Of a stretch of DNA of 64,000 bases, positions 56,942 through 57,903 are shown one piece after another. Within the stretch, counting starts at the first letter, position 1. Each line of letters starts with the position of its first letter. The notes below the pieces were generated by a model. That model did no database searches. It was not told the origin of the DNA and saw only the letters and a program-made list of their open reading frames with translations. Both the position numbers and the translations under genes were made by a program. The DNA is from Treponema primitia ZAS-2 (GTDB taxonomy: Bacteria; Spirochaetota; Spirochaetia; Treponematales; Breznakiellaceae): contig NC_015578.1 of the NCBI RefSeq assembly GCF_000214375.1, positions 2,852,001 through 2,916,000 of the forward strand, in the 5' to 3' direction.

Positions 56942-57903
56942 ATGCCCGGAAGCAGTAAAAAGAACAAGTCTGCCCGAAAAATCCATTGGCACCCTGCTTT
57001 TTTCCAGGCCATACAGCGCGAATTGGCGGACTATAAAGATGCGCTGGAGTTCAAATATGAACATCAACTCACCACCGAACCGCTGAGGATCGATGTGCTC
57101 CTAATCAACAACCTCGCCCTAAAGGGACGAGGTTGTTGTTCTCATAAGGTATTTGTATTCGGGGTTTAATACCCTTTTTAAGCGCCCTAAAGGGCGGGGT
57201 ATTAAACCCCTCAACACGAATTAAGAAACCCCGGGACCTCGCTATACGCAAAAACATTGGCCGGATATTCCGTGCAGAAAACCTGGTGGAGTATAAAAGC
57301 CCCGGGGGCTACCTTTCTGTCAGGGATTTCCATAAAGTGTATGCCTATGCCAGCCTCTATGCCGCCATCACCGGAGGAATTAGCTTTTCCGACTTGACAA
57401 TCACCTTTGTGCAGAAACGGCATCCCCGGGAGCTTATCAGATATCTTACCCGGGAACGGCATTACACCATTGAGGAAGCCTCGCCGGGGATATACATTGT
57501 ACATGGGGATTACCTTCCCATTCAGATCATCGAATCCAGAAAGCTTTCCATCCAGGACAATCTCTGGCTAAAATCCCTGACCGATGACTTGGAAACCGAG
57601 GAAGCCCATGCTATACTGAGGGAAGACGTAAAATGGGATATAGGCCTGGATGCATACCTGCATACGCTGCTCCAGGCTAATTACAAATCTTTTTGGGAGG
57701 CAAGTGAAATGCCAAAAAAAGAGACATTCGAGGAATTCTTTACCAGGGTCGGCCTTATCCCTGAATGGAGGGAACAGGGGGCCCTAAAAGTAGCCCAAAA
57801 TCTCTTGAATAAAGGGATGTCCGTGGAAGAAACGGCGGAGACGGCGGAGTTGCCTATCGAAAAGATCCGTTCCTTAAAGACCTCGGAAAAAACCAGTAAT
57901 TAG
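56942..57903 (+). pseudogene. Rpn-like PD-(D/E)XK nuclease gene split by a hairpin element
   Basis: The N-terminal piece, HWHPAFFQAIQRELADYKDA, then LTTEPLRIDVLLI, holds the catalytic Asp. The frame is then interrupted by the 116-bp insert. Deleting the insert restores KKPRDLAIRKNIGRIFRAEN and LVEYKSPGGYLSVRDF, which contains the ExK motif, and then 205 further codons. The C-terminal part ends with helices (LLNKGMSVEETAETAELPIE) as in treponemal Rpn copies. Without the insert the gene would encode about 280 residues and looks otherwise intact. The downstream half could be translated separately from the in-frame ATG-like codon at 57286 but would lack the catalytic Asp. Confidence 0.85.
57106..57224. 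mobile_element. ~116-bp miniature element with two hairpins (IS200/IS605-end-like)
   Basis: Hairpin 1 (57106-57138): arms CAACAACCTCG and CGAGGTTGTTG, inner CCCT-AA-AGGG with one bulged A. Hairpin 2 (57161-57210): 14-bp arms GGGGTTTAATACCC and inverse, enclosing a second stem CGCCCT-AA-AGGGCG. The element begins within CTAATCAAC and ends before AAGAAACCC. No target duplication larger than two bases is apparent, which together with subterminal hairpins fits a palindrome-associated derivative of an IS200/IS605-type transposon. No transposase. Confidence 0.65.

Follow-up and report, generated by a model that had tools for sequence, protein, structure and literature searches.

A two-hairpin element, probably non-autonomous and of IS200/IS605 type, within a nuclease-like gene of Treponema primitia ZAS-2

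The interrupted gene and its intact paralogue

The window, a stretch of 64,000 nucleotides from the genome of the termite-gut spirochaete Treponema primitia ZAS-2 (a single contig of 4,059,867 bases), includes a nuclease-like gene that is split in two. Its 5′ part (56942–57105, plus strand) and 3′ part (57222–57903, plus strand), both defined by open reading frames and alignment with a paralogue, are separated by an insert of 116 nt at 57106–57221. The paralogue, L280, was found in a search with the downstream half of the gene; it is uninterrupted, forms an open frame in the same genome and shares 82% amino acid identity. Pairwise DNA alignment with L280 gave only one gap, which coincides exactly with the insert, and the junction reads CATAAT|AAAGAAACC in L280 and CCTAAT[116 nt]TAAGAAACC in the window. 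AAT is present at both edges of the insert; hence the position of the cut is fixed only within 3 nt, and no target duplication is needed.

A reading made earlier from the sequence only had proposed a mobile hairpin insert in this gene. The empty site in L280 confirms it, and the inverted repeats lie where they had been placed. The proposed length of 116 nt is correct, but the interval given, 57106–57224, ends 3 nt too far according to the L280 alignment. The TAA at 57222–57224 (plus strand) belongs to the target and not to the element, and corresponds to the TTA of TTAATT on the minus strand. The possibility that the 116 bases are a conserved part of the gene did not come true, as L280 is without them.

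The alignment also upheld the proposal that the insert lies between a catalytic Asp and an ExK without target duplication; the D...ExK positions were read by eye. The reading frame is lost, since the upstream open reading frame stops at 57169, within the insert, and the gene is now, to judge by its sequence, a pseudogene. Interruption of the gene is thus established, but its proposed assignment to the PD-(D/E)XK nucleases is only weakly backed: L280 matches TIGR01784 (Rpn family) over the C-terminus only, with an E value of 1.5e-4 and a score short of the curated cut-off, and it has no match to a Pfam nuclease. The nuclease label, and with it an Rpn-like identity, is tentative.

Architecture and fold of the element

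The element carries no gene and is made up of two DNA hairpins. The complete unit (57106–57221), defined by the paralogue alignment and by its multiple copies, is described here on the minus strand, which is the IS200-like direction. The left end (LE; 57161–57221, minus strand) consists of the CGTGTTGA linker and a long stem with a nested stem at 57183–57196. On the minus strand, the target TTAATT lies immediately before it and shares ATT with the edge. The right end (RE; 57103–57138, minus strand) consists of an AACAAC..GTTGTTGATT hairpin and the terminal motif TTGATT, with the ambiguous AAT/ATT at 57103–57105. The linker between the hairpins (57139–57160, no strand assigned) has TCTCATAAGGT starting at its left edge. 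Inverted repeats pair 57106–57119 with 57125–57138 and 57161–57174 with 57197–57210, and the nested stem appears in the predicted fold, in agreement with the two hairpins, one of them nested, that had been proposed. Folded as single-stranded DNA, the 119-nt stretch gave −34 kcal/mol with z of about −9 for both strands; none of 200 shuffled versions folded as well.

Covariation was examined in 31 diverse sequences, selected from 95 copies by length and a similarity of at most ~93%, plus the window. Changes on both sides were found for 14 of the 26 predicted pairs. Paired cells amounted to 97.0%, as compared with 85.1% after shuffling, and double-sided changes to 95 cells, as compared with 25 after shuffling and 2–13 in slid controls, in which the structure is favoured over its slid versions because it was derived from the same alignment. 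The foot of the RE hairpin, CAACA/TGTTG, is invariant in the 31-sequence alignment. The linker core TCTCATAAGGT is kept in two bacterial families, being exact in 55 of the 95 copies from the host's own family (f1) and in 39 of 40 copies from a second family (f3); 90 of the 95 f1 copies have it with at most two substitutions.

An apparent match between the LE and RE hairpin tips of one copy is not convincing: the tips were identical in 12 of 55 copies scored (shuffled mean 6.5, maximum 13), 40 of the 95 copies being unscorable. At L019, L020, L021, L044, L155 and L330, which come from several genomes, the tip of one or the other hairpin is replaced by a further hairpin of ~20 nt (CTCCC..stem..GTTCTT), as if the tips were exchangeable modules. 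No longer element was seen behind the unpaired ends at the own-genome locus L111.

Copies, targets and strand preference

The T. primitia ZAS-2 genome contains ~30 dispersed copies, represented by 32 BLAST rows, some of which are pieces of one copy, and by 34 covariance-model matches. Within f1, matches were found in 107 of 145 genomes and 48 of 56 genera. An order-level sample, in which the top two candidates per genome were scored and families were counted by eye, gave matches in 115 of 291 genomes (f1, 85; f3, 28; f4, 2). GTDB contigs yielded at least 120 matches, and all titles among the matches listed were Treponema, Spirochaetaceae, Spirochaetales or Spirochaetia. No match was found in viral contigs (exact pattern), plasmids or phages. 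In f3, the copies share this architecture but differ in their hairpin arms, and four f3 genomes carry 24–50 matches each, many of them 95–99% identical to one query. In G028, a single-contig carrier, the sequences include at least eight dispersed copies that are 100% identical over 117 nt and have different flanks; L334 is one of these copies shown again. These data point to a large family of mobile elements that spans two families within a single spirochaete order and is apparently undescribed: no paper on this element was found in searches of the open-licence literature, and the text of PMC12306157 does not mention Treponema.

Matches to LE alone in f3 are segments of 50–52 bases including ATT, in which LE is fused to the RE hairpin to give units of 47–49 nt. 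They occur at 15 sampled places (L419–L433), behind TTTATT (12) or CTTATT (3). One such unit has the same flank in two f3 genomes (L425, L426). Deletion between direct repeats of the two hairpins can be another origin of these units; as a single-hairpin derivative, the 47-nt form would rank among the smallest candidate mobile units.

On the minus strand, the copies lie 3′ of TTNATT and have TTGATT as their terminal motif. The patterns used to pick them demand AAT/AAA at one edge and a near match to CACGAAT at the opposite edge; the edge letters are therefore fixed by construction, and the bases outside are free. Beyond the CACGAAT edge, the right flank is mostly VAA, with AAA in 50 and CAA in 23 of the 95 copies, and AAA follows in 33 of 40 f3 copies; the flank on the other side is near random. 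In the window, the target is the CTTAATT of the nuclease-like gene. At L015 and L025 in the own genome, new copies lie directly behind the ends of older ones, and such tandem insertions are predicted by the TTNATT rule. At both of these loci and, in G028, at L325, the junction of tandem copies or remnants falls exactly on the CGAAT end of the older copy.

The strong covariation would also suit a conserved structured RNA or a cis-regulatory leader that is not mobile, and a putative gene start lies shortly downstream on the plus side of 13 copies versus 8 on the opposite side, as judged by a crude ORF rule that could be applied to 77 of the 95 copies. Such an RNA is highly improbable, as the copies are dispersed into unrelated contexts at TTNATT, insert in tandem at their own ends and, in the window, split a gene. 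Moreover, a search of Rfam gave no match at the gathering score, the best of the sub-threshold matches being rnk_leader, with 27.6 bits where the gathering score is 50. In GC-rich DNA, the classification of gene context was not strict enough for intragenic copies to be counted, and it was kept out of the main claim.

Insertion 3′ of TTNATT together with a TTGATT end is the insertion logic of IS200/IS605 elements and thus supports an IS200/IS605 reading. Several features expected of this type are present: foldable hairpins at both ends, a fixed 5′ motif, no duplication and a target-like motif at RE.

The orientation of the copies was related to replication. The origin of the own genome was placed near 0 and the terminus near 2.2 Mb by the GC skew in 20 samples, each of 20 kb. 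Of its 27 copies (32 rows minus pieces of the same copy), 19 have the orientation predicted for the lagging-strand template (p=0.052). The same orientation is found in G028, from which one of 29 rows was dropped as a piece, for 23 of 28 copies if the terminus is placed at 2.2 Mb and for 20 of 28 if it is placed at 2.0 Mb. The target motif is itself slightly strand-biased (~52–54%, by hand from counts); after correction for this bias, the two genomes together gave 39 or 42 of 55 copies (p=0.01 or 0.0006). Four f3 genomes gave 43 of 73, a bias that is not significant (p=0.16), with origin and terminus assumed and selected rows only. Throughout, the orientation may be confounded with gene direction. 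Two of the own-genome samples, G000:C1:426001-446000 and 2346001-2366000, have a GC content of 0.32 and 0.375, respectively, as compared with mostly >0.48 elsewhere, and are possible foreign islands.

Related tnpA elements and the source of the transposase

Y1_Tnp genes are present in 89 of the 145 f1 genomes. In a group of near tnpA genes, related to P0003 from L084, a left end is found directly upstream of the gene, e.g. TTTATT|n5-GGGGTTTAATACCCCGCC-hairpin, and at several of these loci a hairpin ending in TTNATT follows tnpA, e.g. ATACC-hairpin-GGGTTCTTGATT at L088. Scored against six typed element ends, the LE similarity upstream of tnpA had a median of 18 in the near group (n=22) and 8 in a far group (n=14; p=1.5e-4). 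The RE similarity was weaker, at 13 (21 loci) and 9 (15 loci), respectively (p=0.08). The full left-end pattern, one of a set written after the data had been seen, occurred in 0.015% of 20,000 random windows from samples of two genomes and in 0.22% in element-bearing contigs. The presence of near-group TnpA is loosely linked to that of the element (20 of 107 carriers and 2 of 38 non-carriers, p=0.06), and that of any Y1_Tnp does not track it (68 of 107 and 21 of 38, respectively, p=0.44).

The sequence-only reading had looked to full-length IS200/IS605 elements with the same ends, and to hairpins beside tnpA or tnpB in relatives. Elements of the near group in relatives have a very similar LE and a partly similar RE, and the own genome has none; similar ends do accompany near-group tnpA, and the elements whose ends could be read are tnpA-only. 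The motif rule, the hairpins, the lack of duplication and the tnpA-like ends largely support the proposal, made in the sequence-only reading, of a palindrome-bearing IS200/IS605 derivative. That reading had also likened the right half of the insert to the end from which TnpB guide RNAs arise. Such an origin is extremely unlikely: it has in its favour a general likeness of hairpin ends only, there is no TnpB (PF07282) match in the own genome, and in the related, tnpA-only elements the right end comes directly after tnpA. In addition, that half is the left end in the IS200 direction, i.e. on the minus strand.

No match to P0003 was found in the own genome, which encodes three other Y1 proteins in open frames of 185–257 aa. 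These genes were rejected as partners of the element, as no copy lies within the 4.4-kb loci around them and two carry other palindromes. The latter, at L038 and L039 (G000:C1 ~3456598 and ~2112139), are RAYT-like Y1 genes flanked by the short palindromes GGTGCCaGGCACC and AAAGGTGACaGTCACCTTT, apparently representing REP families of their own. The two hairpins per unit and the three Y1 proteins would fit a REPIN moved by a domesticated RAYT (TnpA-REP) of the own genome. This is very unlikely given the other palindromes at the Y1 genes and the lack of nearby copies; furthermore, G028 carries the element without a Y1 gene, and a script found no GTAG/GTGG on the element's plus strand.

Among 14 finished or near-finished carriers (13 f3 genomes, each in one to three contigs, plus G028), 13 gave no Y1_Tnp (PF01797) match, and the lone match is decayed, with three stops inside. 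There are three alternatives: loss of the transposase after bursts of transposition, its action from elsewhere, or the work of another enzyme. How an IS200-like element multiplies where no IS200 transposase remains thus becomes a testable question.

The last of these alternatives, a different, undescribed non-Y1_Tnp enzyme resident in these genomes, would make the IS200-like ends ancestral or convergent. In its favour are the 13 carriers without Y1_Tnp, set against the identical copies of G028 and the many close matches in the four f3 genomes, and the conservation of linker TCTCATAAGGT across families, though recognition of the ends alone seems not to need it. The element would then belong to an order-wide hairpin family that multiplies without Y1 and is moved by an unrecognised enzyme reading the linker and both hairpins. 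Such an enzyme is, on balance, unlikely: the element agrees with IS200-type elements in its insertion rule, hairpins and LE, loss of a transposase may follow a burst, and no candidate enzyme was found.

The element is probably a non-autonomous one of IS200/IS605 type, moved by a Y1 TnpA in trans. Its boundaries, dispersal in multiple copies, target rule, lack of duplication, covarying hairpins and LE similarity to tnpA elements were observed directly. When the minus strand of the window is single-stranded, e.g. as the lagging-strand template, the two hairpins would fold, and a Y1 (HUH) TnpA would cleave the left end 3′ of TTNATT and the right end 3′ of TTGATT. The excised element would form a single-stranded circle and be inserted 3′ of another TTNATT, here the CTTAATT of the nuclease-like gene. 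The transposase would derive from an IS200-like element that is absent from the genome or has been lost by it.

Comparison with known systems

IS200/IS605 elements have hairpin ends and insert 3′ of a fixed motif that flanks LE, with a related motif at RE, and PATEs are derivatives that consist of the ends only, as described in PMC6006769 and PMC7290912 (the latter for PATEs). The present element resembles IS200/IS605 members (IS608, ISDra2) and PATEs in its subterminal hairpins, the absence of inverted repeats at the tips, the lack of duplication and the fixed motif at LE. However, a tnpA element with the same ends is absent from the host, and most finished carriers are without a Y1 gene. The element further differs in the long nested stem of LE, in a linker kept across families and in the use of the six-base TTNATT rather than a tetra- or pentanucleotide.

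REPINs, which reach high copy number and consist of two hairpins, are thought to depend for their movement on a Y1 enzyme acting in trans, the RAYT (PMC3116915); the element is likewise a miniature two-hairpin unit present in many copies. In contrast to REPINs, no RAYT is flanked by its palindrome, its plus strand has no GTAG/GTGG tag, and its ends are different. Classical bacterial MITEs are similar in being short, non-coding and dispersed, whereas the element has neither terminal inverted repeats nor target duplication. The element is best described as a non-autonomous IS200-type variant, the transposase of which is absent from most of the finished hosts examined.
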